In this document: positions 3,220 to 30,122 of the stretch, in pieces | Layout of the letters: each line of letters opens with the position of its first letter | Numbering within the stretch: position 1 is the first letter of the stretch | Source: Chloroflexota bacterium | Lineage (GTDB): Bacteria; Chloroflexota; UBA11872 | NCBI GenBank assembly: GCA_026707585.1 | Contig: JAPOWQ010000054.1 | Span: forward strand, 1 to 35,124 | Length of the DNA: 35,124 nt | Direction of reading: 5' to 3' | The notes under the pieces: model-generated | Databases searched by the model: none | Seen by the model: the letters and a program-made list of their open reading frames with translations, nothing else | Told to the model about the DNA's origin: nothing | Translations under genes and position numbers: made by a program

Positions 3220-3669
3220 CTAGCCAACGGCGGAGTTGAGCGCGACGGCAGCGTGGCCCGCCGTGCCCAGGGCAAGACAGGGCGCGAACGCTATCACCCG
3301 TTCGCTGGTCCTGCGACATCGGACTATCTGGACAGTCAGCGCGACCGCTGCAGCCGCAATGGCGAGGCCGATGACAGCAAGGACACCCGACACACCTGCG
3401 CTCATGCCCACAACCCCCACGAGCTTGATGTCGCCGAACCCAACAGAGTCACGGGCGATGAACCGCGGGAGAGCGAGCGTTCCCATCCCTAGACCACTGC
3501 CGGCCAAGGCATCCGGCCACCGGCCGCTAGTCGTGGCCAGCGCGGCAGCCGCCACCAAGCCCACGACGATGAGGCCATTCGAAATGCGCCGCTCCCGGAC
3601 ATCCGTTACTGAGGCCGCCAGCGTGACTGCCAGGGCAGCCAGCAACCCCAGCAGGTAGGGGTCAGCCAA
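3220..3669 (-). CDS. Prepilin peptidase, A24 family (TadV/CpaA type)
   Basis: Inner-membrane aspartic protease that removes the leader from Flp-type prepilins. The 149-residue length fits the short TadV/CpaA form without the methylase domain. The two catalytic aspartates are visible: D23 in DVRERR, next to the first membrane helix, and D80 in GFGDIK, matching the GxGD motif. Several hydrophobic segments are present, for example around residues 5-20, 33-45 and 83-112. The start is TTG at 3669, overlapping the end of tadC by 8 bases, which argues for translational coupling. It is the last gene of the pilus operon. Its substrates are presumably the Flp-like pilin and the two TadE/G-like proteins encoded upstream. 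Confidence 0.85.
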   Translation of the reverse strand: MADPYLLGLLAALAVTLAASVTDVRERRISNGLIVVGLVAAAALATTSGRWPDALAGSGLGMGTLALPRFIARDSVGFGDIKLVGVVGMSAGVSGVLAVIGLAIAAAAVALTVQIVRCRRTSERVIAFAPCLALGTAGHAAVALNSAVG

Positions 3670-4579
3670 AGAGCCCTGCCGCGATGCTCAAAAGCATGGG
3701 CACGAAAATCAGCAGCATGAACGCCGGGAGAAAGCAGATCGCAATGACGAGCTGCGCCTTCGCCTCTTGCGAGGCCACCTCGGCGTCGATGGCATTCTGA
3801 CGTTGCGCGCGCAGGCCGACCTCGTGTTGGTCGAGCACGGTGTCGAGCTCACCGCCCAGGCGGCGTGCCTGCTTGAGCGCCAGGACAAACGCCTCGAACT
3901 CCGGCGAGCCGAGCCGGTCGGCGGCCTCTTGAAGCGCCACCGTCAGCGGCACACCCAAGCCGTAGGTCGCCATGGTGCGCCGGATCTCGCGGACAAGCGC
4001 GGTGGATGCGGCGTCCGAACTCTCATCCTCCACCAGCACGTGCAGTGCACGCTCCACGCCCATGCCCGTGCCGATCAGTCCTCGCAACTCCGCGATCACG
4101 TCCGGCACTTCGGCCAGAATCTGCTTGCGCCGCGACCTCTTGCGGGCGTCAATGACCAGCGTCGGCAGCACGAACCCCACGAGTCCGCCAATGGGCGCAC
4201 CCACCATCATGGCCGGAACCCACGGGACGAGGAGTCCGAGTGCGCCGCCGATTGACGCACCAGCCACGAGCTTTATCCCAACGACAGTCCGGGGTGTGAC
4301 CCAGGCACTTTCGAAGCCGGCGTCCCGTAAGTCCTGGGCACGCACGAGGTGATGCGAGTAGCCGAGCCGGTGCCCGAAAGTCTCGAGCAGCATCCCGGCC
4401 ACATTCAAGGGTCCGGCCGGCGCCCGAGCCGTGGTGTCAGAGCCAGCCCGCGTCAGTCGGACGACACGCCGGTGGCGGGCCCCGCCAAAGACATCCGCAA
4501 GCAGCGTGAGCCCCGAGACCGCAAGGATCATCGTCGCGCTCGCAGCCGTGGCGGCGGCGATCGTCGGCAGGCTGATCAC
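3662..4579 (-). CDS. tadC: Tad pilus inner-membrane platform protein TadC (T2SF domain)
   Basis: One of the two platform proteins that sit over the TadA motor in the cytoplasmic membrane and support pilin extrusion. The 305 residues hold an N-terminal hydrophobic segment (about 14-30), two more at about 98-140, the cytoplasmic T2SF helix bundle from about 155 (EVPDVIAELRGLIGTG) and a strong C-terminal membrane helix with the ICFLPAFMLLIFVPMLL stretch. GTG at 4579 overlaps the tadB stop as GTGA, indicating coupling. Calling this one TadC and its partner TadB rests on gene order after TadA and the typical longer linker. Confidence 0.85.
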   Translation of the reverse strand: MISLPTIAAATAASATMILAVSGLTLLADVFGGARHRRVVRLTRAGSDTTARAPAGPLNVAGMLLETFGHRLGYSHHLVRAQDLRDAGFESAWVTPRTVVGIKLVAGASIGGALGLLVPWVPAMMVGAPIGGLVGFVLPTLVIDARKRSRRKQILAEVPDVIAELRGLIGTGMGVERALHVLVEDESSDAASTALVREIRRTMATYGLGVPLTVALQEAADRLGSPEFEAFVLALKQARRLGGELDTVLDQHEVGLRAQRQNAIDAEVASQEAKAQLVIAICFLPAFMLLIFVPMLLSIAAGLFG

Positions 4580-5442
4580 GGCCGACCCCGAGTAAAGCGG
4601 TGCCAGAGCAGCAGACCTCCGAGCTCACACAGCACCGCACTCGGCAGCAGCACGTATTGTCCCAGCGGCTGATCCATGACCGTGAAGGACGCCGGGTTGG
4701 TCCAGCGCAGATAGACATGAATGATCGGAACAGCCAGCGCCACGACGAATATCTGAATCCGCAGCCCTCGGGTTTTGGCTCGCAGATCGTCCTTTGCGCG
4801 GAGGTTGGCGGCGATCGTGCCCTCAAGGCCGTCAAGTGCCGTCACCGCTCGCCGACCGGCTACGCCGTGTTCGATGGCGCGCGCCAGAACACGATAGGCC
4901 AGTCGCAGGTTGCGGCCAGGCGTTCGCGCCGCAACGACGGCGAGCGACGCATGCAGGGGCCGATCAAGCCGAAAGCGACTGGTGATCCAGGCCAGGTCAT
5001 CCTGAACCTGGGCGGTGGCCACGCCCTCGGCTGCCGCCCGGAGCGCCTCGATATACGTGGCGCCCGCGCGCAGATGCGCGCTCAAGTGGCGAAGCAGAAC
5101 CAGCGCCTCGCGATCAGCACGGGCACGGGCATTCCCAACAGTTGCGCGTAGGACGAGAATGGGCGCGATCGTCCCGGCAACTGCGCCGAGCATCGCCGCG
5201 GGCATCGCCACCAGCCCGCCGATGAGTCCACCTAGCGCCACGGCCACAGCATTGAGCAGCACGAAGGTATGGGGCGCGATCCGGATACCCGCTTCTTGCA
5301 GTTGGGTGCCAAGCCCAACAAAGCGTCGGTTCCTTGCGACCGCTGTCGCGGTCGCGGAGCTCCGAGGCGCGGGGGCGAGCGCCAGCGCCAGGGCAACGAG
5401 TCCGGCCGCAACACAACCGGCAGCGATCAGGGAAGCAATCAT
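4576..5442 (-). CDS. tadB: Tad pilus inner-membrane platform protein TadB (T2SF domain)
   Basis: Partner of TadC in the pilus platform. The 288 residues start with a hydrophobic helix (2-24), followed by a membrane pair at about 60-100. The T2SF domain starts near residue 108, with REALVLLRHLSAHLRAGATY giving the typical first helices, and membrane helices follow at the C-terminus. The ATG at 5442 shares its A with the tadA stop codon (TGATG), so translation is almost certainly coupled. Gene order TadA-TadB-TadC is the conserved order in Tad systems. Confidence 0.85.
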   Translation of the reverse strand: MIASLIAAGCVAAGLVALALALAPAPRSSATATAVARNRRFVGLGTQLQEAGIRIAPHTFVLLNAVAVALGGLIGGLVAMPAAMLGAVAGTIAPILVLRATVGNARARADREALVLLRHLSAHLRAGATYIEALRAAAEGVATAQVQDDLAWITSRFRLDRPLHASLAVVAARTPGRNLRLAYRVLARAIEHGVAGRRAVTALDGLEGTIAANLRAKDDLRAKTRGLRIQIFVVALAVPIIHVYLRWTNPASFTVMDQPLGQYVLLPSAVLCELGGLLLWHRFTRGRP

Positions 5443-6794
5443 CAGACAACGCCGTGCAACCGCAGCTTGGTCTGGACTGCGGATCCCGGCTCATAGGCCT
5501 CTGACGCCTGAAATATCACGCCGACACCGCCGGACGCCCGCTCGGCGGTGAAGACGGGCCGCAGGTCGTAGGTCCCCGCGTCCGTGATCCCGGCAAGCTC
5601 CGCAACTTCAAGCACGACGCGTTGCCCGCCGGCTAGACGCCCAACATGAAGCACGAGATCAAATGCGCGTGCAATGGGCTCCCGGAGCTCGGGAATGGTC
5701 ACAGCCCGATACTCGCGACGGACCAGCGTCTCGAGTCGGACCAGGGCATCGGCCGCACCGTTGGCGTGAATGGTCGTTCCCGATCCGGCGTGACCTGTGT
5801 TGAGTGCCTCCAGGCAGACGTAGGCCTCGCGCGGACTGCGGATCTCGCCAACCACCAGTCGATCTGGCCGCATGCGAAGCGCATTGGCGACCAGGTCGGC
5901 CACCGAGACCGTGCGGTCCTGGTAATCGACCGCCCGGTGGCCGTGCACGCACTGCAGGCGAACGGTGTGTCCGCGCTCGGGCACGGCCAACTCCGTGGTG
6001 TCCTCGATGATAATCACGCGCTCGCTCAGGGGAGTGAGCGCCAGCAGACTGGCCAGCAGCGTCGTCTTCCCGGCACCGGTGGCTCCGGCGATCAGCAGAT
6101 TCAGCCGGGCGCGGACGGCGGTGGCCAGGAACGATGCCATGGCCTCGCTCAATCCGCCGGCAGCTACCCAGTCGGTCGGCGCCGCCTCGGCCTCGTCGAG
6201 CCCATCCGTGTCGGTGTGCTCGCGCCGAAGGGCCATTCGCACGCGCCGGTGCTTCCGAACGGAGAGGCAGGGGCCGCCGACGGGTGCGATCACGAGATTC
6301 GCCCGGCTCCCGTCGGCCATGCGCGCATCCACGCAGGGACTCTCCAACGACAGGTGGCGTCCAACCAGGGCCGCGATCTTCTCCATCAGCGCCGCGAGGT
6401 GCTGGACATCGCGAAACCGGACCGGCGTAGCCTCGAGCCGACCGCGGCGTTCCACCCAGATGTCGGTCGGCCCGTTGACGAGCACATCGGTAACGTGGGG
6501 ATCGGCCATCAGTGTCGCGAGCGGGCCGAGTCCGGCGAGCTCGTCGGAGAGCCGCCGAACCAACCCCGGGTCAGGCACCGCCCGGGGGAAGATCTCAGCC
6601 AGATGGGCATGAATGACCGCCTCGATGCGCGCGGTCCGATCTGGCACCGGGCTGAACGGATCCAGCACCTGCGGGTCCAGCGACGTCACCAGCCGCTCCC
6701 GCACCCGAGCCAAGAACGACTCATCGCCGAGCAGATCGGTTGGCGACTCGAGGGCAAGGTGCCCGTGCAGCGCCAGGTCGCTCGTGCCCGTCAT
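5442..6794 (-). CDS. tadA: Tad pilus assembly ATPase TadA (CpaF family)
   Basis: Cytoplasmic hexameric secretion ATPase that powers Flp pilus assembly. Its 450 residues match the family. Visible motifs: an N-terminal domain with DVLVNGPTDIWVERRGRL at about 103-120; Walker A GATGAGKT at 237-244; the Asp box around IIIEDTTEL (261-269); Walker B region VVGEIRSPREA (314-324); and the His box NTGHAGSGTTIHAN at 332-345. All key residues are present. ATG at 6794 overlaps the end of the CpaB gene by 4 bases. CpaF/TadA is closely related to VirB11, but the flanking TadB/TadC genes settle the assignment. Confidence 0.93.
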   Translation of the reverse strand: MTGTSDLALHGHLALESPTDLLGDESFLARVRERLVTSLDPQVLDPFSPVPDRTARIEAVIHAHLAEIFPRAVPDPGLVRRLSDELAGLGPLATLMADPHVTDVLVNGPTDIWVERRGRLEATPVRFRDVQHLAALMEKIAALVGRHLSLESPCVDARMADGSRANLVIAPVGGPCLSVRKHRRVRMALRREHTDTDGLDEAEAAPTDWVAAGGLSEAMASFLATAVRARLNLLIAGATGAGKTTLLASLLALTPLSERVIIIEDTTELAVPERGHTVRLQCVHGHRAVDYQDRTVSVADLVANALRMRPDRLVVGEIRSPREAYVCLEALNTGHAGSGTTIHANGAADALVRLETLVRREYRAVTIPELREPIARAFDLVLHVGRLAGGQRVVLEVAELAGITDAGTYDLRPVFTAERASGGVGVIFQASEAYEPGSAVQTKLRLHGVV

Positions 6795-7516
6795 GGGATG
6801 GACCGCGTGGTTTGACTTTCGTTCGACAGTCCGCTGCCCGGTGGCTCATCAAGTCGTTGCGTGAGAACAAAGATGCCCGTCGGAATACGGGCCACGTAGC
6901 GCGGCACGTCAATCGCCGGCACGGCCAGGACGGCGGCACCGATGCGAACGGCCGCCCGACGGCTGAGCCCCTCGCCGTCGGATGGAATCTGGAGCGGCTC
7001 GCCGCGGTCGCTGCGCAGTTCCACCAGCAGGACGCCACGGCCAAGGATCTCAACCTGGTGGGGCGTCGCTGCCGAAGCTCGTTCGCCAGCAGCTGGATCA
7101 GGACTGGCAACCAGAACGTCGACGATCTGGGATGCCGGCACCACGCCGCCGAGGGCGCGAACGGCATCCACCGGGATCGCGACAAGGGCGTAGTCGGGCG
7201 GAATCTGCGCCGCATGCGCCAACAGGGCCGCACGGCGCGAGTCGGCCAGTTGACCGCCAACGATGTACTGACCCTTGGGAATCGGTCCCGTGGCATAGGC
7301 CCCCGCGGCTGCCTCAACCGAGGCGAATGCACCGGATGGCCGCGCCGCGGGGTTAATGCTCTGGAGCTCCAGCTTGTCCGGTGTGAGGGGCTCGCCCAAC
7401 GCGAGCGGACGAGCCGCGACCACGACGGTTGCGATCTGCATGCTCCGATACACCAGGACGCCGGCGACGAGCCCGAGGAGCAGACCTACCGCAAGAAACC
7501 AATGCCGTCTCATCAT
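6791..7516 (-). CDS. cpaB: CpaB/RcpC-like pilus assembly protein (SAF domain)
   Basis: A membrane-anchored extracytoplasmic protein. CpaB/RcpC members sit between the inner-membrane machine and the cell exterior in Tad systems. The 241-residue protein has an N-terminal membrane helix (about 6-23) followed at once by a SAF-like domain (VVVAARPLALGEPLTPDKLE, 31-50, continuing to about 90). The second half carries AIPVDAVRALGGVVPASQIVDVL, the usual CpaB continuation. The start is ATG at 7516, overlapping the TGA of the preceding gene; a second ATG at 7513 is possible. In diderms CpaB works with the secretin, which I do not find here. Confidence 0.82.
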   Translation of the reverse strand: MMRRHWFLAVGLLLGLVAGVLVYRSMQIATVVVAARPLALGEPLTPDKLELQSINPAARPSGAFASVEAAAGAYATGPIPKGQYIVGGQLADSRRAALLAHAAQIPPDYALVAIPVDAVRALGGVVPASQIVDVLVASPDPAAGERASAATPHQVEILGRGVLLVELRSDRGEPLQIPSDGEGLSRRAAVRIGAAVLAVPAIDVPRYVARIPTGIFVLTQRLDEPPGSGLSNESQTTRSIP

Positions 7517-9123
7517 TCGTTCTCCCACGTGGTTGCGCCCTGAAACCGCACCGTGACCGCGATCGACGCGTGCATATCGAAGCGCCGGACCACGCCGTCG
7601 CTGTAGCTGACACGGATTCGAGCCCGAAGATGGATCGTGTACGGGTCGAGCCGGCCATGCACGACGGGCGTCACGTCGTTCCACTGGAATCGCAGGCGCT
7701 CGTTGGGTCTGCCCGTGTCGCCCGGGCGGGTGCCGCCGGGTCGATCGTTCACCCCGCGAACAAAGGTCCACTGCTCCAGCTCGACGCGCGCGGACGGATC
7801 GGTGGCCGGTGGCTGGACATCCGGTCGTACCCAGAGGTCAATCGGCGCGCCTCGAAGCACCTCGATAGACCGAAATCCCGCGTCGTCAGCAGCCATGGCC
7901 GATCCCGCGAGCACCGGCGCCACACGAATGGTGCCCGACGGCGGATCGTGGGCCGGCGTGGGCGATTTCGTCGGGGTCGGCGGTGGTTTCGGCGTGGACG
8001 TGGGTCCCGGCCGCCGGGTGGGCGTCGACACGGGTTCCGGATCGCCTGTCGGCGTCGGATCAACCTGCAGGCCGTCGGGTCCGTTCCCCGGCGAATCATG
8101 GTCCGGATCTCCGACCACGGGATCGGCGACCGGCGACGTCGGCGTCGGTGTTGCCGTCGGTCCAGCGTCGCTCTCGGGCGTCGGCGTCGGCAGGGCACCC
8201 GTCGTAAGCAGTACACGATCGTCCTGGAAGAAGACGATGCTCGTCGGCACAAAGCACCCATGACGCTTTCGATAGTTCTGGTAAAACGTGCCCGCGAGCA
8301 GTTGGCCGTTCACGTCCCGCTTGCGGCCGTTGAAGGCGGCGCCGTCGTATGGACTGCTGGCGCCCTTGCTGTAGCTGCCGAGATCCACCGCATACAGATC
8401 GTTCGGACGATTGTCGGTCACGGTCCCGTAGTAGATGCCGGTCTCAGATTCCTCGACCTTTGTGCCGGCGTAGTAGTTCGTCACCTTGTAGATACCGCGT
8501 GGAATCCGGCAGTTTGGGCGCGGCGTCGCATCCGGGACGGGCGTCGGCCTGGGATGGGGAAGGGCAACCCAACGGCGACGTGTCTCATAGTGGCCCGGCG
8601 ACACGACGACCCGCCGAGTCTCGTAATAGCCCGCCAGCCAGCGCCGGTCCGTCGTCCACCGGCCGGGCACCCACACCGTGGTTGTCTCCTCGCGTTGCTC
8701 TGTGATCCAGGAGCCGTGGTCTTGCCACTGGGAGGTGTTGACCCAGACTTTCTGAAGCGCCCAGCGCGAGGTGTCGACCCAGACGAAGTCAATCCCGGTA
8801 TCGTCGTCGTCGTCCAGCTCTGCCCAGTAGCCACTCTTGATCCACTGCAGGCGCTCCACCCAGTGGCCCGACACCACCCACACCATCCGCGATTGCCAGA
8901 CCCGCTCCTCGACCATGCGAATCCGGGTGTCCCAGCGTCCCGGAACCCAGACGCTGTGATCTTCCCAGCGGCCTGGAACCCAGACACTTCGGTCTTCGAT
9001 CACGGGCTCCACCCAGACCCTCTCGGTCTCCCAGATGCCGTGATCTGCCCTTGCCTTTGCGACAACGCACATAGTCAACAGGAGACCGACGGTCGCTGCC
9101 AGCCACAATTCCGTGCGCCACAT
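7513..9123 (-). CDS. Large secreted protein with WxxGxW-like repeats and Thr/Pro linkers
   Basis: A probably exported 536-residue protein of unknown function inside the pilus operon. Residues 1-26 form a signal peptide ending ARA. From about 28 to 187 there are repeated aromatic units of the kind VWVPGRW, VWVVSGHW, WIKSGYW, VWVPGRW and RWLAGYY, spaced by charged segments, matching the WxxGxW repeat seen in secreted bacterial proteins. A short Pro-rich hinge (190-204) leads to a central domain (about 205-310) with two cysteines. A long PTPTP-type linker (about 320-400) and a C-terminal beta-rich domain of about 130 residues follow. The gene starts 3 bases after the previous stop and overlaps cpaB. 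Its place suggests a surface or pilus-associated role such as an adhesin or tip protein (inference). Confidence 0.7.
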   Translation of the reverse strand: MWRTELWLAATVGLLLTMCVVAKARADHGIWETERVWVEPVIEDRSVWVPGRWEDHSVWVPGRWDTRIRMVEERVWQSRMVWVVSGHWVERLQWIKSGYWAELDDDDDTGIDFVWVDTSRWALQKVWVNTSQWQDHGSWITEQREETTTVWVPGRWTTDRRWLAGYYETRRVVVSPGHYETRRRWVALPHPRPTPVPDATPRPNCRIPRGIYKVTNYYAGTKVEESETGIYYGTVTDNRPNDLYAVDLGSYSKGASSPYDGAAFNGRKRDVNGQLLAGTFYQNYRKRHGCFVPTSIVFFQDDRVLLTTGALPTPTPESDAGPTATPTPTSPVADPVVGDPDHDSPGNGPDGLQVDPTPTGDPEPVSTPTRRPGPTSTPKPPPTPTKSPTPAHDPPSGTIRVAPVLAGSAMAADDAGFRSIEVLRGAPIDLWVRPDVQPPATDPSARVELEQWTFVRGVNDRPGGTRPGDTGRPNERLRFQWNDVTPVVHGRLDPYTIHLRARIRVSYSDGVVRRFDMHASIAVTVRFQGATTWENE

Positions 9124-9126
9124 CGG

Positions 9127-10041
9127 CTATGGCATTGCGGGATGAACGGCAACCCCGGCCCAGAGCTGGTCCGAGACCCGGGCGTCGAACACGAGGCCCA
9201 CCGATACCCGGGCAACTTCTGAGCCCGTGAGCACCGACGCCGCCTCATCGCCAATCAGACCGCGCAGTTCACCCATTCCCGCCGCGTCCCACGCGGCAGG
9301 CGTGCCGACCGACCAGAGGCGCACGGCCCAGCCACCCGCCGCAACCGCCTGGTATTGCCTGCCATCCACACGCACACGGTCGATGTCGCCCAGTCGGAGG
9401 GCATGGGCGACAAGCGTGCGCAGTGCCCCACGTCGCGTCTCATCGACAGCGGCCGCCGAGAGCCCCCGTCGGGCCCGTTCCCAGGCCACCCACTCAAGGA
9501 AGTGCTGCTCAAGCGCCACGAGCACGTCTGGATCAGGCTGTGTCGCGCCGTCCTGCGGGCGTGGGACGCCGGGCCGTCCAACCACAACCGTCGCCGATGC
9601 ATCGAACGGCGGGAGCACGGCGTGCACCCGTGCCTGCCCCGGTGCCAGACCAGTTACGCGGCCCTGCGAACTGACCGATAGGACGGCGCGATCACTCGAA
9701 AACCAGCGCACCGGGGCGTCCCCGCGTGATGTCCCATCGGCCAGGGCAACCTGGGCGTCTACCTGCGCTTCTTCGCCAACTTCCAGACGCAGCGGCTCGT
9801 CGACACCTGTCGCGACGGTCAGGTTGGTCACGGCGATTCCGGCGGGGCTGGATCGTGCTGGACTGCCTTCGGTTGGCTCGATGCCGGCCACGGCGGGGAG
9901 GGTCGGGTTTCCGGCAGCGCTTCCGATCAGCAGGCCGATCGCCGCGCTGAGGCTCAGGGCTGCGGCCGCAATCACGACGGCGAGCGCGAGGGGCAGCCGG
10001 ACGCGGCGCCCCGTAATCGATCGATGTTTCGGGCTTCGCAT
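9127..10041 (-). CDS. Membrane-anchored protein with a bacterial Ig-like (Big2-type) domain
   Basis: A 304-residue protein with a basic N-terminus and a membrane helix at about 17-44, followed outside by a Big2-like domain at about 72-155. The pattern LRLEVGEEAQVDAQV...WFSSDRAVLSVSSQGRVTG is typical of these folds: strand, S-D-x-V-L-S-V and G-x-V-x-G turn. The C-terminal 150 residues are unassigned. ATG at 10041 is preceded by AAGGAG, a strong ribosome site that overlaps the end of the previous gene. It is probably an extracytoplasmic accessory of the pilus or cell-wall interface. Confidence 0.65.
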   Translation of the reverse strand: MRSPKHRSITGRRVRLPLALAVVIAAAALSLSAAIGLLIGSAAGNPTLPAVAGIEPTEGSPARSSPAGIAVTNLTVATGVDEPLRLEVGEEAQVDAQVALADGTSRGDAPVRWFSSDRAVLSVSSQGRVTGLAPGQARVHAVLPPFDASATVVVGRPGVPRPQDGATQPDPDVLVALEQHFLEWVAWERARRGLSAAAVDETRRGALRTLVAHALRLGDIDRVRVDGRQYQAVAAGGWAVRLWSVGTPAAWDAAGMGELRGLIGDEAASVLTGSEVARVSVGLVFDARVSDQLWAGVAVHPAMP

Positions 10042-10045
10042 GGCA

Positions 10046-10549
10046 CTAGCTCCTTGTCGTTGCGCTGGCCGTGATCGGCAGAGCGCGAATTGCGGGCAAG
10101 CCCGCCAGGCGAAGGAGCCCGGTGCGCACGGGGACCTCGGCCCGGATGGATACGGTCGGGGCGGCCACGCTCCGTTTGCGGATCGGATCAAAGCCACCCT
10201 GTGCTGTGACGGCGATCTGGGCGGACGTGGCGACTGCGTCCGCCGTCGAACCCGCAATCAAGCCGTCAACTGATCGCAGGTTTAGGCGCAGGTACTCGCG
10301 GGCGACGGCGGTCGCGTGGTCACTGAGTCGGACTTCGCCGGTCGCCGCCAAGTGGTGTGCGTCGACCTCACCGGCAGCCACGACGGCGGCCTGCTCGAGC
10401 GCATCGCCAAAGCGTAGGCGCTGGCCACGAATGCCATTGATGTCGATTACCAGCGCCCCCAGCAGCAGGCTCAGGACGAGCAGCAACGGAGTCAATCCTG
10501 AGATCGAGCCACGCTCGTCGGCCACGGCGGCCCGCGCGACAGTGATCAT
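10046..10549 (-). CDS. TadE/TadG-like pseudopilin
   Basis: A small pilus-associated protein with one N-terminal membrane helix. After a short basic leader comes DERGSISGLTPLLLVLSLLLGAL, which resembles the Flp/TadE/TadG processing region (Gly followed by a hydrophobic helix). The body (about 40-165) would be extracytoplasmic. Total length is 167 residues, shorter than classical TadG and lacking a von Willebrand domain. ATG at 10549 overlaps the previous stop as ATGA. It may be a minor pseudopilin or a TadF-like protein. Confidence 0.62.
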   Translation of the reverse strand: MITVARAAVADERGSISGLTPLLLVLSLLLGALVIDINGIRGQRLRFGDALEQAAVVAAGEVDAHHLAATGEVRLSDHATAVAREYLRLNLRSVDGLIAGSTADAVATSAQIAVTAQGGFDPIRKRSVAAPTVSIRAEVPVRTGLLRLAGLPAIRALPITASATTRS

Positions 10550-10980
10550 CGATTGACTTCGCCCCGCGTCGTGAAACGCGAGCGCAATGGCACGTCCATT
10601 TCCAAGAGGAACGGAATACGGACGCGCTGGGTGCTCCGCAATTCGACGGTCACCGGCTCGCGCCAGTCCACCGCCGCTGGTTCGATGACGACGGACACGG
10701 ATGCGGGGTCGAGCCCCGCGGTCGCGAGGTCGGCCGCCACCCGGCCACGGAGAGCGGCACTGTCACCGCCCTCCTGCGCCACCTGCCGGGCCGCCGCGGC
10801 GGCCACGTGGTTCTGGGCCTGCCACGCGTCCAGGGTCTGGGCGAAGACAATCACCGCCACCAAGACGGGGACAATGACCAGCATCGCCAGGACTGCTTCC
10901 GCACCCACGGCCCCGCGCTCGCCGCCAAGGCCCGGCCTTGAACGAACGAACCGTCGTCGCGGCCTGGCCATCCCTGGCAC
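10546..10980 (-). CDS. TadE-like pseudopilin
   Basis: A 144-residue protein with an Arg-rich leader, then GERGAVGAEAVLAMLVIVPVLVAVIVFAQTL at about residues 20-50. This is the TadE pattern: ERG, a Glu five or six residues later, and a long helix. The remaining hundred residues would lie outside the membrane. Starts are GTG at 10980 or ATG at 10971; the gene follows the pilin gene by 3 bases. It is probably a minor pseudopilin cleaved by the operon's own prepilin peptidase. Confidence 0.65.
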   Translation of the reverse strand: MPGMARPRRRFVRSRPGLGGERGAVGAEAVLAMLVIVPVLVAVIVFAQTLDAWQAQNHVAAAAARQVAQEGGDSAALRGRVAADLATAGLDPASVSVVIEPAAVDWREPVTVELRSTQRVRIPFLLEMDVPLRSRFTTRGEVNR

Positions 10981-10983
10981 GGC

Positions 10984-11175
10984 CTAAAGCGCCGCCAGGT
11001 CCCTCAGGACACCAGCGAGATATTCGGACAGGCCGTTGTTCCAGGCCACGATGGCCGCCCCGAACACGGCGACTCCGATTCCGGCGATTACGATGTACTC
11101 GGTGGCATTGCCACGCTCGTCGGTCACAGCCGTCCGCAGACCGGCCACCAGCCGGTCCTTGATGTGCATACCCAT
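10984..11175 (-). CDS. Flp-like type IVb pilin
   Basis: The likely major subunit of the pilus. The 63-residue size matches Flp pilins. Residues 19-48 read DERGNATEY followed by a continuous hydrophobic helix (IVIAGIGVAVFGAAIVAW). The G-x-x-x-E-Y arrangement is the type IVb cleavage region, although Glu sits one residue closer to Gly than in textbook Flp (G-ATAIEY), so cleavage could fall before or after the Gly. GAGGAC lies a few bases upstream of ATG 11175. A 140-base gap separates it from the preceding gene, which could hold its own promoter. A highly expressed pilin would benefit from that. Confidence 0.75.
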   Translation of the reverse strand: MGMHIKDRLVAGLRTAVTDERGNATEYIVIAGIGVAVFGAAIVAWNNGLSEYLAGVLRDLAAL

Positions 11176-11315
11176 GAGGGTCCTCGCAGTCGTACGATGA
11201 AGAAGGGTTCGGTGAAGACATGCGCCGCAAGCCTTGCGGCCAGTCTTCGCAGGTCGGATCCGGCGCCGTCGGGGGCGAGGTGTGGTTGCCGATCCCCCGC
11301 CGGCGCCCTAGCAGT

Positions 11316-12200
11316 TCATCCGCGGCTCACCTCCAATCGCTTCGCGCGGGCCGGCACCGACCCATCGAGCAGCGTCTGCTGCCGGTCGGCTTCGCCGAGT
11401 ACGGGCGTCCAGACCGAGCCCAGCGGATCGGCAAGAAAGGCCGGCTCCCAGGCCACGGCGATATGCAGCACCTGGTCCATCCCCCCGATGCCGCGCGCGG
11501 CCAGCTGGTGCAGGCCGGACTGGAGGGCCTGGCGGAGGCTGGCCACTCGCGATCGCCGGCTGGTAGTGACGCGCAATTCGGGAAAGACCGGAAATTCCGA
11601 ACGCCAGGTGCCTGATCGCCAGAAGTGCGCATAGCGGTGCACCTTCCGGCTATATCGGCGGAGCTCCGCCGTGCCGCGGTCAATCTCGAAGAAGAGCCAG
11701 TGGTCGCCGCGCATACTGCGCACCTGCGCCAGTCCGTCGGGATTGATCACATGCCATCGATCGTTGGCCGGGTAACGCATCCGCAGGTGCGGGTCCGAAT
11801 TCCAGCGTATGAGCGCGTGACCGGCGGCGGCCTGCAGCGACCGCCACAGGGCAATGAAGCACTGGTTGACCGCCAACTGATGCCGGGCGCGTTCGGGCGT
11901 GAAAGCCTCGGGATCACGCACGAAGGGAATCTGGCCGCGGGGCGCATCGTCGATGTGCTCCAAAACGCCGGCACCCTTCGCCGACAGGCCGTAGACGTAC
12001 CCGCGACTGCCGCCACCCGGGCCGCCGCTGGCTGGCCGCGCCCGCACGACCAGACCTTGCGCGTGCAGGGTCGTCAGGCAGCGCTGGCACGCGCGCCGGC
12101 TGACCGGGGCGAAGACCACCTGGTGCACCTGGCCGGCGTCCATGAAGCGATGGGCGAGCAGCAGGCGCAGGACCTGGACCTGGCGAGGCGCCCAGATCAT
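11316..12200 (-). CDS. Replication-relaxation family protein (winged helix)
   Basis: A 294-residue protein of the Replic_Relax family, known from plasmids and conjugative elements and often next to an FtsK/TraD-like ATPase, as here. The first 60 residues form a winged-helix with VLRLLLAHRFMDAGQVHQVV and CQRCLTTLHAQGLV. The centre has RHQLAVNQCFIAL and the C-terminal half has the conserved GDHWLFFEIDRGTAELRRY. ATG at 12200 is preferred because the upstream extension of the frame is low-complexity Arg/Ser. A GC-rich stem (GGGGAAC pairing with GTTC-TCCCC) ends directly before this ATG and could hinder ribosome binding. The role is probably DNA binding; its exact function is not known to me. Confidence 0.72.
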   Translation of the reverse strand: MIWAPRQVQVLRLLLAHRFMDAGQVHQVVFAPVSRRACQRCLTTLHAQGLVVRARPASGGPGGGSRGYVYGLSAKGAGVLEHIDDAPRGQIPFVRDPEAFTPERARHQLAVNQCFIALWRSLQAAAGHALIRWNSDPHLRMRYPANDRWHVINPDGLAQVRSMRGDHWLFFEIDRGTAELRRYSRKVHRYAHFWRSGTWRSEFPVFPELRVTTSRRSRVASLRQALQSGLHQLAARGIGGMDQVLHIAVAWEPAFLADPLGSVWTPVLGEADRQQTLLDGSVPARAKRLEVSRG

Positions 12201-12408
12201 GGGGAGAACCCCGGAGTTCCCCTGATAGTTACGCGGCGCGACGGTCGTCGTTTTGTCGGAACATTCATTGGCGTCACGGCGGTCGACAGGTTTGGCTGTC
12301 CTCTGGATGTCGGCACGCCGAGACGACGGTGCTCCGTGGCCAGACGCACGAGGTCGCGACGGCATTGACGACGGCGAATGCGTCGTGTCGTCCCGGCCCG
12401 AAGAACCG

Positions 12409-13824
12409 TCACGCCGTGCCCTTCGGCATCTCGGGGGCGGCGTCGCTCGGACGGGCGGCCAGATCGACTCGGCCCTGCGCCTCGCCGGGCACGTCCTCCG
12501 TGGACGACCCGCCCGCGGAATCGTTGCCGACTGGATCTGCGCGTGACCCGTCGGATCCCATGAGGACGCCGTAGCGCGACGCGACGTGGGCATCAAGAGC
12601 GGCCCGGGGCTGGCCCAGGGCCCGTCGAGCGCGAGCTTGGATGCGAGCCGCCATGGCCGGATCCCCGCGCGGGATCGGCCCGACCGCCGCCTCGAAGGGC
12701 TGGGCGGGCTGGTTATCGACCAGCGTCTTGATCGCCATGTGATAGGCGGGGAGGTCATCGAGCTGTGCCGGCGTAAAGGCAGGCGCCATTTCCATGGCGA
12801 AGTGCCGCGTCTGCTCGCGGAGCCCACCAAACACCACGTGCGTCCTGGTGTTGAGTAACACGCTCGTGAGGATGCTCTGCAGCCGACGATGACCAGGGTT
12901 CTGGGTGGCCACCGCCAGCCCTACCCCGTAGCTACGCGAGCGTTCAAAAAAGGCGCCCATGTCGCGTCCAGTGTCGACGAACTCCTGGAACTCGTCGATG
13001 ACCGCAAAGAATGGCGCCCGCGCGCCCGCCGGCCGCCGCAGCACAGCCTGCCAAAACTGGGTCACAAGGATGCTGCCCAGCAGCCGGGATCCGGCCGCCC
13101 CCAGCGCCGTGTCGGCCTGATCCAGGTTGGCCAGCACGATCTCGCCACGCTCCAGCACGCCGTCCCAGCGCACCGCTGAGCGCGGCTGCACCAGGATGTT
13201 CCGCACGCGGGGATCCTGCACCAGCATGGCCATGCGCCGCAGAGCGCCGCCGAACGTCATCTCAAACTGCCGGACCGAGATGCGGTCGACTTGGTTGCGC
13301 CAATAGGAGAGCACGAATGGATCAGTGACGTTGGCCACAAGGCCCTGACGCCAGTCACGATCGATGAAGAGTCGTTCGAGGTCGAGCATGGTCGGCTTGA
13401 TCTGCGGGTTGGCAGCCAGCGTGCGAAACCCATAGGCAAAGGCCTGCGACATCGAGGTCCCCCAGAGGAAGTCCTCGCCGCGGACTAATTCGCGCAGCAG
13501 CGAATACACCGCCATGGCCACCCGGTCGCCCTCGTCCGCGTCCCGCACGTCGAGCGGATTGAGGCCCACTGGCCTATCCGTGTCCGCAAAGTCGAGTGAC
13601 AGGACGTCGCGCTCACGCGCCGGAGGAATCGAGGCCAGGAGGGCGTGCGCCAGATCTCCCTTTGGATCCAACAGCAGCATTCCGCGACCGAGCCGAACGG
13701 CCGACAAGGCCAGCCAAAAAAGAAAGGTGCTCTTGCCCACGCCGGTCGGACCTACGACGAATACATGCTTCAACGCGTCCGTGGGCTTCAGCCCGTAGGT
13801 CCGCCGCTCGCGACGCTCATCCAT
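12409..13824 (-). CDS. VirD4/TraD/HerA-like DNA-pumping ATPase
   Basis: A 471-residue P-loop ATPase resembling conjugative coupling proteins. Walker A GPTGVGKST lies at residues 25-33, LLLDPKGDL at about 50-58, Walker B as PFFAVIDEFQEFV in the middle, and the coupling-protein sensor AVATQN later. There is no N-terminal membrane domain; the preceding gene may supply a partner. The C-terminal 70 residues are disordered and Asp/Pro/Ser-rich. I chose ATG at 13824 because it overlaps the stop of the upstream gene by 8 bases; the frame upstream of it is a shadow of that gene. It could move DNA, or here could act with the pilus. No relaxase gene is visible. Confidence 0.8.
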   Translation of the reverse strand: MDERRERRTYGLKPTDALKHVFVVGPTGVGKSTFLFWLALSAVRLGRGMLLLDPKGDLAHALLASIPPARERDVLSLDFADTDRPVGLNPLDVRDADEGDRVAMAVYSLLRELVRGEDFLWGTSMSQAFAYGFRTLAANPQIKPTMLDLERLFIDRDWRQGLVANVTDPFVLSYWRNQVDRISVRQFEMTFGGALRRMAMLVQDPRVRNILVQPRSAVRWDGVLERGEIVLANLDQADTALGAAGSRLLGSILVTQFWQAVLRRPAGARAPFFAVIDEFQEFVDTGRDMGAFFERSRSYGVGLAVATQNPGHRRLQSILTSVLLNTRTHVVFGGLREQTRHFAMEMAPAFTPAQLDDLPAYHMAIKTLVDNQPAQPFEAAVGPIPRGDPAMAARIQARARRALGQPRAALDAHVASRYGVLMGSDGSRADPVGNDSAGGSSTEDVPGEAQGRVDLAARPSDAAPEMPKGTA

Positions 13825-14569
13825 CAGGCGCCTGCCCCAGGAAGAGCCCGGTGTCGTGTGTGACGCGTCCACGTCGGGCGCTGCGGCGGGTCCAGGTGCG
13901 CTGTTCGGCAAGGCCTGTGAATTCGCCGAGCGGACGGCCCGTAAGCACTGCCGCCTCGCTAGCACTCGCCACGAAGCCAGCGCCCGGCCATGGGCGGGCC
14001 GCCCGAATTGTTCGAAGATACGAGGCACGACGCATGGGACGTCGCAGCTCCAGCCGGTTGAATGGCCCAGCACCGTGATTAAAGACCGCAGCCGACTGGA
14101 GCAACCGCTTACGAGACCGCCGTCGGCCCCGCGTCTGGACGAGCACGTGGACCTCAAGGATCACCAGGACCCCTCGGACCTTCGCCTCGGCGGTGCCGGC
14201 CTCGGCCAGCCGTTCCCGAGTTGCCGCGTGCGACGTCGGTCGATAGGACTGGCCGGCAAGGGCGAACGCAAGCAATTCCCGCAGTCCCTCACCAAGACTG
14301 CGCCCGAGACTTGGCAAAAGGCCACGCCCACCGGGCTCTCGACCGGCTCGCAGGGCATGAACGATCGCCCACCCGCTGACGCGGACGTTCGGACTGATCG
14401 GCCTGGCAATGCTGCGGATGAGCACCGTTTCATCGCCCGCCAGACCGGCAAAGACCAAGTCCAGGTCTGGCGGCGGCGCCGAGGCCGGATCTTCCCACAG
14501 CGGCAGCGCCCATGAACGGGCTGGACGCAGGTATCCGCCAGTCGTGAATGACTCGCGACCGTGCGTCAC
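13817..14569 (-). CDS. Unknown protein upstream of the coupling-type ATPase
   Basis: A 250-residue protein of no recognised family. GTG at 14569 overlaps the preceding stop codon as GTGA, and its own end overlaps the ATPase start by 8 bases, so it is tightly coupled on both sides. Segments such as ARPISPNVRVSGWAIVHALRAGREP and VRGVLVILEVHVLVQTRG look like a soluble alpha/beta protein; there is no clear membrane helix or signal peptide. In VirD4/HerA-type loci the partner gene often encodes the N-terminal region found fused elsewhere. That would fit an ATPase that starts almost at its P-loop (inference). Confidence 0.6.
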   Translation of the reverse strand: MTHGRESFTTGGYLRPARSWALPLWEDPASAPPPDLDLVFAGLAGDETVLIRSIARPISPNVRVSGWAIVHALRAGREPGGRGLLPSLGRSLGEGLRELLAFALAGQSYRPTSHAATRERLAEAGTAEAKVRGVLVILEVHVLVQTRGRRRSRKRLLQSAAVFNHGAGPFNRLELRRPMRRASYLRTIRAARPWPGAGFVASASEAAVLTGRPLGEFTGLAEQRTWTRRSARRGRVTHDTGLFLGQAPDG

Positions 14570-14952
14570 GCCGGCGCACCTCGCCCGGATTCGGGAACTG
14601 CCTCCGTCGAGCCACGCCATCCAACCAGGGGAACCGTGGCTCGCGGCCACCAGCCGCGCGACCGGCGACGACGCTCGGCGGCATCGAGGCGTTGGGCGTA
14701 GCTGCGCGCCACTGTCTGTGTTCGCTGGAGCAGCCGCTGCAAGTGACTCTTCTGTCGGTGCGCGTCTTCAAGTTGGGTCCGGAGCCGGTCGACTTCGCGA
14801 CAGAGGTCCACGATTTGGCCGCGGGCCGCTGCGAGATCGCGCTGAGCGTCGGCCGCCGTCGCGATTTCCGGCAGTCGCTGCTCCAGCAGAACGGCCAGCC
14901 GGTCGCGCTCACGCGTGACGGTGCGGCGGCGCCCGGTGCTTCGCACTGCCAT
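14566..14952 (-). CDS. Small coiled-coil protein, first gene of the operon
   Basis: A 128-residue basic, helical protein. Heptad-like sequence runs through RDRLAVLLEQRLPEIATAAD, RGQIVDLCREVDRLRTQLED and HLQRLLQRTQTVARSYAQRL (about 18-100), so it probably forms a coiled coil. ATG at 14952 is preferred because GGGAGGGAAAGG precedes it; a longer frame to 15015 exists. No family recognised. As the first gene, translationally coupled to the next two, it may be a scaffold or DNA-associated partner of the ATPase module. Confidence 0.6.
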   Translation of the reverse strand: MAVRSTGRRRTVTRERDRLAVLLEQRLPEIATAADAQRDLAAARGQIVDLCREVDRLRTQLEDAHRQKSHLQRLLQRTQTVARSYAQRLDAAERRRRSRGWWPRATVPLVGWRGSTEAVPESGRGAPA

Positions 14953-16405
14953 TCGCCTGCCTTTCCCTCCCGCAACGGTCGGCTGTCTACCGTCTGCGGG
15001 AATCCTGCTGTGCACGTCCTGCCAATCAACGTTCGGTTACGGTAGGCACCGCACACGCGACGTGGAATCCAGGATTCAGTAATTGCGTTCGGGCAGGTCC
15101 GGCCGCCACGCGCACAATCAGGGCACCTGAGGACTGGCCCGACCTGACCTGAAGCGATCGCTCAGACGAAGGCTCCGCACCCCCGATCATTCGAGTTCGA
15201 ATAAGTTCCAAACGCTCTGCGGCCGGTCACCTGGGACGTCGGTCGCCGCACGATATCGCTTCAGGTCGCAGTCGGTGTTCAAGTGCAGGACGACGGGCTC
15301 CGAAGCGCGGGGCAGGCGCAGCAATGCCGGAATCGACGACCAAACGTCGCTCGGTATTCATGCCGCAGCATTGCGTGAGGCCATCGGGATCTGCAGCGCC
15401 AGGTACGAGCCAAGCCGTACCGTGGTCAACCGGCGCTGTGCATACCCTCATCTGCCGCGTCGACACATGTACAGCCCCAGCCCAACACGTGGTGGGCGTG
15501 CCACACCGACGATCTCGCCCTTGTCAACGCCGGACCCACTTAGATTCACCGCAGCACCGCTGCCGAGATCCAACTCATCAGATCGACAGTCTCGGCAGCG
15601 ATCGTGGAATGCGTCGCGGCACGTATCAGGTGTCAGGCCGATACCAGGGTTTCTGCACATCAGCCGATCGTAGCGGGTATTAGGTCCGCCAACACGCGAT
15701 GTCGGTCGGCACCATGAACGATCGCGTGGAAGAACGAGTCTAAGCTCGGTTGAATCGCGATCAAAGGATTCGGCGGCTCGAATGCTGAGTTCGTCCGCGG
15801 CAGAGCACGCGTGACGCGGGAGCATCAGGCTTCGAAAGCTGCAGTCTGAGGCCCGTGTCCGCGAATCTCGCTTCATCAGACCGGCCGATCGTGATTTAAG
15901 TGGACCTCGTGAGCACGGACCCCAACCTTGGGCCCCGACGGAGCGGTCATTGCTCGTCCGGAATTTCGCGATGTCGCCTCGGCGGATCGGCATCAGACAA
16001 GCGACTCGCAGCCCGTTCGGATTCAGGGTCGGTCACGTTCGCGATCGCGGCCACATTAACCCTGCGGCGACCAGTCCCCGGTCAGCCCCGTGGCGGCGCT
16101 GCACCCACGACGCGTCTCACGCTCAGTCGCGGACTGGCCCGATGCGACATCGACCGCCGGTCGCCGGACCGGCGGTCCGTGGACGCGACGATTCGGTTGC
16201 GATCGAGGCGCCAATGGTCAGAATGACTCGCCGCTCGGGACAACGGCCGGTCGGTTCCAGTTCAAGTTCACTCCTGACCGAAAGAGTAGGCTGTTGTCAA
16301 CGCACGATACCTGGATCACTGCTAACCCAACCGTTACTGGAGCGTAATTCCAACCCCTTTGAGTGTCATCGGTCTGTCACGCATCGACTTGTACGCTTTA
16401 TGAGT
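14953..16405. other. Long region without a convincing gene; should hold the operon promoter
   Basis: Frames on both strands (for example 15448-15993 minus and 15324-15683 plus) give Arg/Ser/Pro-rich translations without motifs. The leader of the minus-strand operon must lie near 14953-15100. TTGATT near 15030 is a possible -35 but has no good -10 partner. I see no tRNA or rRNA here. Confidence 0.45.
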
Positions 16406-20877: not shown

Positions 20878-21010
20878 GAACAGGCCCGGTGGCGGCCGCG
20901 CGATCCTTCAGGTCGGCGCGGACGATCAGCCGCGCCAGGAGACGGAGCCCCTGGCGCCGGAGCGCGTCCTGCGCCGGGGGAAGCCGCAGCTGGCCGGTGG
21001 TCGTGGGCAA
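20813..21010 (-). CDS. Possible small protein heading the HTH operon
   Basis: A 65-residue frame with a natural-looking helix (QDALRRQGLRLLARLIVRAD). It overlaps the start of the first HTH gene on the same strand. It is also antisense to the open upstream extension of the restriction-modification gene. If real, it shows that the restriction gene cannot begin before about 21000. No family recognised. Confidence 0.4.
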   Translation of the reverse strand: MPTTTGQLRLPPAQDALRRQGLRLLARLIVRADLKDRAAATGPVRDAAPSDVEPASSREADRRAR

Positions 21011-24000
21011 TGGGTGCGACCTTCCGCCGGACTTTGGGCTGTACGCGGCGAAGCAGGTGCAGCGCGGGGGTCAGCCGAAAGACGACCAGTTGCCCGAGCA
21101 TGGCGTTGTTGAAGTGAAGTCGGCGGACGACGACGCGTGGCAGACCGCGACGAGCGAGCAGGTGAGCAAGTACTGGGGGCGCTACCGACTGGTGCTGGTG
21201 ACGAACTATCGCGAGTTCCTGCTGGTGGGCGAGGACGCGAACGGGAACCCGGCGCGGCTGGAGAGCTTCCGGCTGGCCGCCGACGCGGAGGATTTCGAGC
21301 AGCAGTTGGAGAAGCCGCGGGCCTTTGCAGAGCGGGTTGGCGTGGGGCTGGGCGAGTACCTGCGACGGGTGCTGAGCCACCGCGCACGGCTGTCCGACCC
21401 GCGCGACCTGGCCGAACTGTTGGCCTCGCATGCGCGGGACGCGCTGGCGCGGGTGGAGGCCGCCGAAGCCGAGTCGGGGGCTGGCGTCGCGCCGCTGGGG
21501 GCGGTACGGGACGCGCTGGAAGCGGAGCTGGGCGTGGAGTTCAAGGGCGAGCGGGGCGCGCGGTTCTTCAGGTCGACGCTGGTGCAAACGCTGTTTTACG
21601 GCGTCTTCTCGGCTTGGGTGCTTTGGGCGCGACAGACTCCGCCGCCGACAGGTGCATTCGAATGGCGCACTGCGGTCTGGCACCTGCGCGCACCGGTGAT
21701 GCGGGCGCTTTTTCAGCAACTCTCGGAACCGGGTCGGCTGCAACCGCTAGGACTGGTGGACGTACTGGATTGGACCGCCGCCGCACTGAATCGGGTAGTG
21801 CGCGATGAGTTCTTCGCTAGCTTCAGCCAGGGTGAAGCTGTTCCGTACTTCTACGAGCCATTCTTGGAAGCCTTCGACCCGGAACTACGCAGGGAATTAG
21901 GCGTTTGGTACACACCGCCGGAGGTGGTGCGCTACATGGTGGCGCGCGTGGACCGGGCGCTGAAAGACGACCTGGGGATCGCCGACGGGCTAGCCGCCGA
22001 GAACGTGTACGTCTTGGACCCTTGCTGCGGCACCGGCGCGTACCTGGCCGAAACGCTGCGGCGGGTTTCCGCCAACCTGGAAGGTCAAGGGCTTGGCGCA
22101 CTGACCGGAGCGCGAGTCAAGCAAGCGGCGACCAAGCGAGTGTTCGGATTGAAGATCATGCCGGCGCCATTCGTGGTGGCGCACTTGCAGGTGGGCTTGA
22201 CCATGCAGGACCTGGACGCGCCGCTGGCGGAGGACGGGGAAGAACGGGCGGGGATATTCCTTACCAACGCTCTGACCGGCTGGGAACCACACGCACAAAG
22301 GAAGTTGCCGATACCAGAACTGGCCGAGGAGCGTGACCGGGCTGAACGGGTGAAGCAGGACACACCGATCCTCGTGATCTTGGGCAATCCGCCATACAAC
22401 GGCTTTGCCGGAGTGGCAATTGATGAAGAGCAGGATCTCTTGGATGCGTACCGAACTGCGACTCGCGTGGAGCTACCCGATACCAGAGCGCTTCACGACC
22501 TCTACGTGCGCTTTTTCCGCATGGCCGAACGGCGCATCGCGGAAAGGTCTCGTCACGGTATCGTCTGCTTCATTTCAAATTACTCCTGGCTGGATGGACG
22601 GTCATTCGCCGGTATGCGGGAGCGATATCTCGAAGCGTTCGATGCTGTAAGAATTGACTGCCTGAACGGAGATGTGCGAACTGGTGGTCGCACTCCGGAC
22701 GGCGCACCATATCCAAGTGTCTTCACGACAGACCGCTCAGTTGGCATTCAGGTCGGAACTGCGATCACCACCCTGGTTCGCCAAGCTGCCCACACGGCAA
22801 CCACGAAGATCGGCTTTCGCCACCTCTGGGGTCAGGCCAAACTAGCGGAACTGACGAGTACAGCAGAGGCGGCACCGAAAAAACTCTACGCCGACCTTAC
22901 GCCCGTCTTGTCTTTAGGACTCCCATTCAAGCCGACCACCATAAGTGGAGGGTGGGCAAGTTGGCCCACACTACCCGAGCTATTCCCCGTCAATTTCTCA
23001 GGCGTGAACACCAACCGTGATGCATTCCTGGTTGATACTGATCTGGACCGCCTAAGAGCCCGCGTGGTCGACTATTTCGACCCGAACCTGAGTCACAGCG
23101 AGCTTGCAGAGCTCCATCCGTCCGCAATGCGACCTCGTGCGCGTTACTACCCCGAATCGGTTCGGGATACGCTCTTGGCGCGCGGCGGCCCTACGCAAAG
23201 TGGCTTCATCCGATACACCTACCGTCCATTCGACACTCGCTGGCTCTACTGGGAGGCCGATACAAAGCTGCTGAACGAGAAGCGGCCCGACTACCGGCCT
23301 CATGTATTCGACGAGAATCTCTGGCTGTCTTCAGCACCACACCTCCGAAAGTTCCCTGACGAACCGCAAGCCTGCGTCACCCAGCAGATGGCCTGTCTGC
23401 ACATGATCGAGCGGGGTGCCAACCTATTCCCAGCCTGGCTCGATGAAAACGCGCTGGGAGCCCAGAAGTCAGGAGCTCTTCGGCCAAATCTGTCAGCCGC
23501 CACTCGCCGTTACCTTGATCGCCTTGGATTTGCAGTCGAAGACCTCTTCCACCACGTAGTCGCAGTCCTGCACGACCCTGCCTATCGGGCAACGAATGCG
23601 GGCGCGCTGCGGATGGAGTGGCCGCGGATTCCGCTGCCGCACTGGTCCGAACTGTCGGCCCATACCAGTGCAGAGGAGCGCAAGTTGGCGGCCAAGGTCG
23701 AACATGCTGCCGAGACTTTGGCCGACTCGGTTGCTCGCGGGCGGGAACTAGTCGCGTTGCTGGAACCCGACTCCCCGGTTCCCGGCGTCACTACAGGCCA
23801 GCTTCGGCCTGAGATCGCCGCCATTGTCGTGCCGGCCACCACGCACGGGCGCAACATGTTCGGCGAGGACTTTCGCCTGACGGCCGGCTGGGGGCACTTC
23901 GGAGCCCGGCAGGCGGTGATGCCGGGGCAGGGTCGGGCGGTTGAGCGGGGTTTAACGGAATCGGAGCGCGCCGCGGTGGGCGCTGCCCCAGACACGGTGG

Positions 24001-24257: not shown

Positions 24258-24460
24258 GGAAGACGTGCGCGGGACGGTAGGTCTTGCTGCACCCGGCGAG
24301 AGCCAGCTTTCCCGATGCTAGGACGCGACCGAACTCAACAGTCACTGGATCTGTGCGCTTTCTTGACGTTGGGCGATCCGGCCATGAGTGCGACACTATC
24401 GGTGAAGGGCCCGAGGGACTCAAGAGGCCTAGCCGGAGAGTCTTTGAGGAGCCGCTGACC

Positions 24461-24921: not shown

Positions 24922-24945
24922 CGGGATTATAAGGTTGGCTTGACA
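24922..24945 (+). repeat. Left terminal inverted repeat of the IS1595-family element
   Basis: Twenty-four bases starting CGGGATTATAAGG, perfectly complementary to 27484-27507. Its inner end is TTGACA, which doubles as the -35 box of the transposase promoter. Confidence 0.92.
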
Positions 24946-24968
24946 ATTTGAGCGAAACCCGGTAGACT
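24940..24968 (+). promoter_or_regulatory. Transposase promoter starting inside the left inverted repeat
   Basis: TTGACA (24940-24945) and TAGACT (24963-24968) with a 17-base spacer, 30 bases before the transposase ATG. This is the best sigma-70-like promoter in the window. It would drive the whole three-gene operon. Confidence 0.65.
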
Positions 24969-24998
24969 CTCTTATCAGTCGAAATCGGGAGTCCAGCG

Positions 24999-25916: not shown

Positions 25917-25920
25917 GCCC

Positions 25921-27474: not shown

Positions 27475-27483
27475 CCTGCGGGC

Positions 27484-27507
27484 TGTCAAGCCAACCTTAT
27501 AATCCCG
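27484..27507 (+). repeat. Right terminal inverted repeat of the IS1595-family element
   Basis: Begins TGTCAAGCC and ends TAATCCCG, the perfect reverse complement of the left repeat over all 24 bases. It starts 9 bases after the methyltransferase-HNH stop codon, placing that gene firmly inside the element. Confidence 0.92.
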
Positions 27508-30116: not shown

Positions 30117-30122
30117 GGCCTC

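Follow-up and report, generated by a model that had tools for sequence, protein, structure and literature searches.

Why would an operon for a Tad (type IVc) pilus open with genes that resemble those of conjugation? The question is raised by a 35,124-nucleotide stretch of Chloroflexota DNA (GenBank assembly GCA_026707585.1, contig JAPOWQ010000054.1), referred to here as the window, which is the whole of contig C56 in a 3.9-Mb assembly of 75 contigs. In its list of open reading frames (ORFs), 14 minus-strand frames extend from 15015 down to 3220, and most of them overlap or are separated by a few bases. They encode, in order, a coiled-coil protein, an ATPase (two ORFs), a Replic_Relax protein, a Flp-type pilin, two TadE-like proteins, a Big_2 protein, a WXXGXW protein, CpaB, TadA, TadB, TadC and a prepilin peptidase. 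An initial annotation of the same DNA had correctly seen a coupled, co-directional run, but with about thirteen genes and an end at 14952; the operon has 14 genes, and its end lies at 15015. We consider it probable, though well short of certain, that this operon is the transfer module, for conjugation or mobilisation, of a horizontally exchanged element, in which the Tad machine substitutes for a dedicated type IV secretion channel. On the best reading, the pilus stands in for the usual channel or supports it; both DNA transfer and the exact role of the pilus are inferred.

The combination of the two gene sets is not accidental. All 14 genes are collinear in five further genomes, three of the same genus (G001, G006 and G008) and two of the sister genus (G013 and G017). 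This is far beyond chance and therefore rules out a chance neighbourhood. Nucleotide similarity to the window spans the operon and ends at about 3149 and 15165, beyond which only short scattered patches are found. TadA of the operon's kind is present in four of 13 members of the genus and in two of six members of the sister genus, and in each of these it is accompanied by the ATPase and the relaxase. Each TadA of at least 79% identity has both the ATPase and Replic_Relax within about 8 kb. Thus the modules are never apart among close relatives, as expected from the initial annotation, which had treated them as one unit. In G019, from another family of the same order, the ATPase lies about 5 kb from a TadA of 57% identity; this locus contains a VirB4-like gene, a fused ATPase and tad genes, and Replic_Relax was not detected. 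In G060, from the same phylum, tad genes, a VirB4-like gene, a type IV coupling protein (T4CP) and Replic_Relax lie within one 20-kb stretch.

Tad pili are mostly known as adhesins. The operon could accordingly encode a plain adhesion pilus, with the relaxase-ATPase pair gained by chance or for co-transfer only. VirD4-relaxase pairs do travel without tad. Such tad-less T4CP-relaxase pairs are found repeatedly in Chloroflexota, in some cases together with a VirB4-like gene, and among the other Chloroflexota loci with more distant ATPases, Replic_Relax adjoins the ATPase in 13 of 20 (17 genomes), with no tad in the stretches read. However, the gene order is kept in two genera, the ratio of nonsynonymous to synonymous substitution rates (dN/dS) is 0.06-0.25 on the ATPase motor half and the relaxase, and the same association is found on Streptomyces plasmids. 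Values of 0.06-0.37 across the operon indicate purifying selection on all of its genes. We therefore regard adhesion alone as very unlikely, and the earlier preference for DNA handling over simple adhesion is borne out by the combination of modules.

The fourth gene (11316..12200) encodes a predicted MOBC-type relaxase of 294 amino acids. It matches PF13814 (Replic_Relax) with an E value of 3.9e-32 and 112 bits, against a cut-off of 25.3. PF13814 is the MobC relaxase family (PMC5357655 Table 1), so the statement of the initial annotation that no relaxase is present does not hold. MOBC relaxases such as pAD1 TraX and CloDF13 MobC are kin of PD-(D/E)XK restriction enzymes (PMC12857230). The window protein consists of a winged helix and a C-terminal domain with PD155, E172-x-D174 and K186, and it probably acts as a nicking enzyme. 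Residues D155, E172, D174 and K186 are invariant in 13 aligned Replic_Relax sequences. A structural model with a predicted local distance difference test score (pLDDT) of 86 contains the winged helix followed by an alpha-beta domain, and the C-terminal alpha-beta order fits the PD-(D/E)XK type. A structure search with this model returned winged-helix proteins. For the second domain, the best nuclease-like match was 2okf, which we take to have a restriction-endonuclease-like fold, and this match was weak (E 0.028). A search of the relaxase profile against the sequences of solved structures gave nothing useful.

The ATPase is encoded in two pieces. The third ORF (12409..13824, with its ATG at 13824) is the motor half of a coupling-protein-like ATPase, with the Walker A motif GPTGVGKST and the Walker B motif VIDEF. 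The second ORF (13817..14650, 277 amino acids, conserved from about 14593) aligns to the N-terminal part of a fused paralogue on contig C73 of the same genome (L004, 8443-10830). ORF 2 and ORF 3 form one open frame in this paralogue and in G019, and ORF 2 therefore encodes the N-terminal half of this ATPase. The initial annotation, which likened the first four genes to transfer genes, had described the second as unknown; it is in fact part of the ATPase. The stop of ORF 2 lies just past the start of ORF 3 in all six tad operons; the overlap is ATGGATGA in the window and the same or near-equivalent elsewhere. A frameshift error as the source of the split is ruled out by this equivalent overlap in six of six operons.

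On its own, the motor half of the window falls under every family cut-off. The fused paralogue, which has 795 amino acids and is 73% identical, passes the cut-off of TrwB_AAD_bind (PF10412; 25.3 vs 20.5 bits), and through it the motor is assigned to the VirD4/HerA type and, by homology, to the T4CP family. The dN/dS of the motor half is 0.06-0.15. A model of the N-terminal half (16 sequences, pLDDT 74) gave weak structure matches only (E>0.3), and in several of these the match was TrwK, a VirB4 ATPase. Because of these matches, the choice between VirD4 and VirB4 character is not fully settled, and we refer to the split ATPase as VirD4/VirB4-type. A profile search of the genome contigs with the ATPase profile found five loci only, all in genomes already found. 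The paralogue belongs to a second, tad-less transfer module (L004, 8443-15399 on C73), which consists of the fused coupling protein, a VirB4-like protein of 803 amino acids and Replic_Relax.

Between the coupling protein and the relaxase lies a conserved non-coding block (12201..12408). The distance from the ATPase stop to the relaxase start is exactly 208 bp in six of six operons. The core of the block, at 12225-12265, is an invariant AATGTTC[CT]GACAAAA-n15-CGCGTAACTAT. Among 25 genomes searched, this pattern occurs only in the five that bear the operon, with one further copy on contig C59 of the window's genome (G000), and a reversed control pattern gave zero matches in the same 25 genomes. 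G017 stands outside this set, and its core pattern was read in its own locus. The C59 copy (L123, 9820-10022) keeps about 203 bp, from past the would-be ATPase end to the relaxase start codon. It has neither the ATPase nor the relaxase gene and adjoins a tyrosine recombinase and AbiE. Profile search revealed a third copy in the same genome, on contig C46 (L150, 2613-2805; E 9e-28), which adjoins an AAA-gene block, and in G017 a copy that precedes another Replic_Relax gene. The stand-alone copies on C59 and C46 are free of relaxase, ATPase and pilus genes, and the AbiE and AAA blocks beside them are parts of integrase-linked elements.

The block is a strong candidate for an origin of transfer (oriT), because it is kept without its usual neighbours and beside mobile-element genes, as would be expected of an oriT used in trans. 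The stand-alone copies may then mark mobilisable elements. A role as mere relaxase promoter or N-terminal extension is unlikely, since the block is kept without a relaxase downstream and the frame is interrupted in G013. In tad-less modules, tandem direct repeats of about 83 bp lie between the coupling-protein and Replic_Relax genes (L108, 5345-5892 on G013 contig C10; also L110, L111 and L112) and are possibly relaxase binding sites.

The operon has moved between genomes. G001 and G006 share 98.2% nucleotide identity in a 4.2-kb stretch of rpoB and 97.9% in an integrase-VWA-AAA block, but only 78.2% in the tad operon. The contrast between rpoB and operon rules out vertical descent of the whole operon. 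The operon is also mosaic. The nearest neighbours of the window are G001 and G008 in the relaxase region and G006 from about 7.8 kb downwards, and the window and G001 share 89% DNA identity in the ATPase motor half vs 82.6% in rpoB. The operon is thus horizontally exchanged and has been replaced between near-identical genomes. Downstream of the operon in G006, G001 and G008, genes for AbiE, AAA and VWA proteins continue in the same direction, with a tyrosine recombinase gene at the end. Recombinases at least 74% identical to it over all or nearly all of their length (as two pieces in G008) are found only in the four operon-bearing members of the genus; G014 and G015 have short fragments only, at 72-73% identity. 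The window's genome contains two related tyrosine recombinases, on contigs C72 and C30, neither of which is joined to the window contig. The recombinase on C30 abuts a tRNA-Gly(gcc) gene (L119, 2787-4047), which is a likely attachment site. No attachment sites were found beside the window operon, whose contig has no integrase of that kind.

A host could also have domesticated the pilus for DNA uptake or release, with the ATPase and the nuclease processing DNA for its benefit. The Tad-dependent transformation of Micrococcus luteus takes up free DNA and is not known to involve a relaxase or an oriT. As cited in PMC5696575, that system shows that Tad loci can serve transformation, and it resembles the operon in tying a Tad machine to DNA movement. 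The window copy has no linked integrase, which would suit a domesticated function. On the other side are the patchy distribution of the operon and the absence of ComEC- or DprA-like genes among its members. The initial annotation had suggested uptake or a domesticated transfer system. Three observations make this less likely than an exchanged transfer or mobilisation module: the oriT-like block, the copies of it that adjoin other elements, and the operon replacement between near-identical genomes. We judge it improbable.

A similar arrangement is seen in another phylum. A plasmid search with the fused ATPase identified many plasmids of Streptomyces, such as NZ_CP109414.1 of S. anulatus, whose T4CP and Replic_Relax genes are followed by CpaB-TadA-TadB-TadC-pilin-TadE on one strand. 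Of the 60 best Replic_Relax records, 42 have TadA on the strand of Replic_Relax, 4.2-16.5 kb downstream of it; since the query came from a tad-linked plasmid and only these best records were taken, the fraction is no population estimate. The plasmid pSITFR-21a is a counter-example. The Replic_Relax proteins of the two phyla share 26% identity over most of their length (E 8e-8). Unlike the Chloroflexota operon, the Streptomyces plasmids have an ATP-binding (VirB4-like) gene and a lytic transglycosylase gene upstream of the T4CP, their ATPase is unsplit, and sequence identity is about 23-26%. On Streptomyces fungicidicus p1 (L155, 8401-17497), VWA, AAA ATPase and DUF5682 genes lie beside a type IV secretion system (T4SS) DNA-binding protein, and the VWA-AAA pair is also part of the Chloroflexota integrase elements. 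Chlorobium limicola pCL1 (L156), a 14.6-kb plasmid, carries mostly tad genes with ParA and a recombinase, and has no annotated Replic_Relax, relaxase or VirD4.

In the mechanism that we propose, the MOBC-type relaxase would recognise and nick the candidate oriT just upstream of its own gene. The split ATPase (13817-14650 plus 12409-13824) would take the relaxase-DNA complex and drive it to the membrane. The Tad machine, with its TadA motor, TadB/C platform, Flp and minor pilins, peptidase and two surface proteins, would form the envelope-spanning structure that contacts the recipient, and DNA may move through it or with it. Elements elsewhere in the genome that have the oriT block and nothing else of the module would be mobilised in trans. 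DNA may pass through the machine, or the pilus may serve for cell-to-cell contact only. In the boldest version, the Tad apparatus itself is the DNA translocator, fed by the relaxase and the split ATPase without any type IV secretion channel. It would act in this way in islands of Chloroflexota and, as part of a fuller system, on many Streptomyces plasmids that current typing counts as non-mobilizable; this version is tentative and, in our view, doubtful.

Alternatively, the relaxase and the ATPase could form a conventional mobilisation module served by a type IV secretion channel whose genes lie elsewhere, with the Tad pilus only joining cells. In R64, a thin type IV pilus brings cells together for liquid mating (PMC12857230). 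The C73 module, with its VirB4-like ATPase, its own fused coupling protein and Replic_Relax, is compatible with such a channel, as are the VirB4-like genes near the T4CP in G019 and G060 and upstream of it in Streptomyces plasmids. However, no VirB4-like gene was found in the 15-40 kb read around the six operons, and the tight 14-gene order, which places the relaxase within the pilus operon, points to a common function. We consider this explanation rather unlikely. Several points nevertheless weigh against a transfer module served by the Tad machine. VirB4-, VirB6- and VirB8-like genes are absent from the operon, and the VirB4-like genes near the Streptomyces, G060 and G019 loci mean that a cryptic secretion channel could be elsewhere. 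Foldseek with the relaxase model gave no match under E 0.001. The stand-alone oriT elements were put together from contigs interrupted at a repeat. On the window contig, the operon lacks a linked integrase that would mark the boundaries of this copy.

Known transfer systems share parts of this arrangement. As in the MOBC modules of CloDF13 (MobC/MobB) and pAD1 (TraX), a Replic_Relax protein adjoins a VirD4-type ATPase, the putative active-site pattern is restriction-endonuclease-like and a non-coding block lies beside the relaxase gene. Unlike them, the Chloroflexota operon is fused with Tad genes, has its coupling protein in two pieces and contains no T4SS genes. PAPI-1 of Pseudomonas aeruginosa requires a type IV pilus for transfer, in addition to VirB4/VirD4 (PMC12857230), and likewise codes the pilus together with a VirD4-like protein. 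The operon differs from it in its Tad pilus, its MOBC relaxase, its single-operon layout without VirB4 and its phylum. Linear plasmids of Cutibacterium acnes carry a tad locus with FtsK/VirB4/TcpC-like genes, a link that the authors call unclear; here too, tad lies on an extrachromosomal element beside conjugation genes, but neither a relaxase nor a single shared operon is described (PMC5696575). In the literature searched, which left out most subscription journals, no paper joins Tad pili with a MOBC relaxase.

The remaining genes of the operon together form a predicted Tad pilus set of TadA, TadB, TadC, Flp pilin and prepilin peptidase. The Flp-type pilin (10984..11175) has the prepilin motif ERG/NATEY, and its homologues are 79-87% identical. 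It is followed by a TadE-like minor pilin (10546..10980), assigned by position, an N-terminal pilin-like motif and conservation, and by a TadE/G-like minor pilin (10046..10549; PF13400 E 9e-4, just under the cut-off). The membrane-anchored Big_2-domain protein (9127..10041, start set from homologues) scores 31.6 bits for PF02368, above its cut-off. The secreted WXXGXW-repeat protein (7513..9123; PF12779 above cut-off) is a putative surface part kept in six operons. CpaB/RcpC (6791..7513) has a SAF domain and scores 71.3 bits for TIGR03177 (cut-off 71). The VirB11-like ATPase TadA/CpaF (5442..6794), the sole copy found in its genome, matches TIGR03819 with 236 bits (5e-70), under its cut-off, and VirB11 with 198 bits (2e-58). 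The platform proteins TadB (4576..5442) and TadC (3662..4579) were assigned by position and conservation. The TadV-type prepilin peptidase (3220..3669) was recognised by the motifs D-x3-RRISN and GFGDIK and by a homologue at the corresponding position in six operons. TadB, TadC and the peptidase pass no curated family cut-off, and rest on order, motifs and homologues. No gene like RcpA, the secretin of diderm Tad systems, is found among the 14 operon genes, as would be expected if the cell has one membrane.

The first gene (14566..15015) encodes a small basic coiled-coil protein of 149 amino acids that comes first in six operons (53-77% identity). It has no Pfam family above cut-off, and a role as relaxosome accessory is a guess. 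A single transcript, perhaps with an expression step at the pilin, is weakly favoured. A promoter or terminator that might separate the two modules, which the initial annotation had named as a point against their unity, was sought between 3000 and 16500: no sigma-70-like promoter was found, and nine terminator-like sites vs 6.5 (sd 2.5) in shuffles are no clear excess. Like 12201-12408, the interval 11176-11315 is more than a plain spacer. It holds a conserved GC-rich hairpin directly 3' of the relaxase stop (11262..11308, minus strand; folded in five operons), which has no T tract and is likewise consistent with one transcript.

The flanks of the window contain other genes. At 1-2100, minus-strand frames resemble, by eye, a restriction-methylase gene in fragments, interrupted by frame changes or by the end of the contig. 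The region 20889-32464 is island-like cargo with a type ISP restriction-modification protein, an IS1595-type transposase, an N4/N6 methylase-HNH fusion and a Schlafen/AlbA_2 protein, whose gene is directly followed by a ParA-like gene. At 33440-34950, a tRNA-His gene precedes an FtsK-like gene split into two overlapping frames.

Tad pili, which rank with the most common surface structures of bacteria, are generally classed as adhesins. An operon that unites a relaxase, an oriT candidate, a coupling ATPase and a complete Tad machine provides a testable case for a Tad pilus that drives or assists conjugation. The order T4CP - Replic_Relax - Tad can serve as a search signature for further such systems. 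Plasmids and islands with this signature, many of them typed as 'non-mobilizable', may be transmissible.

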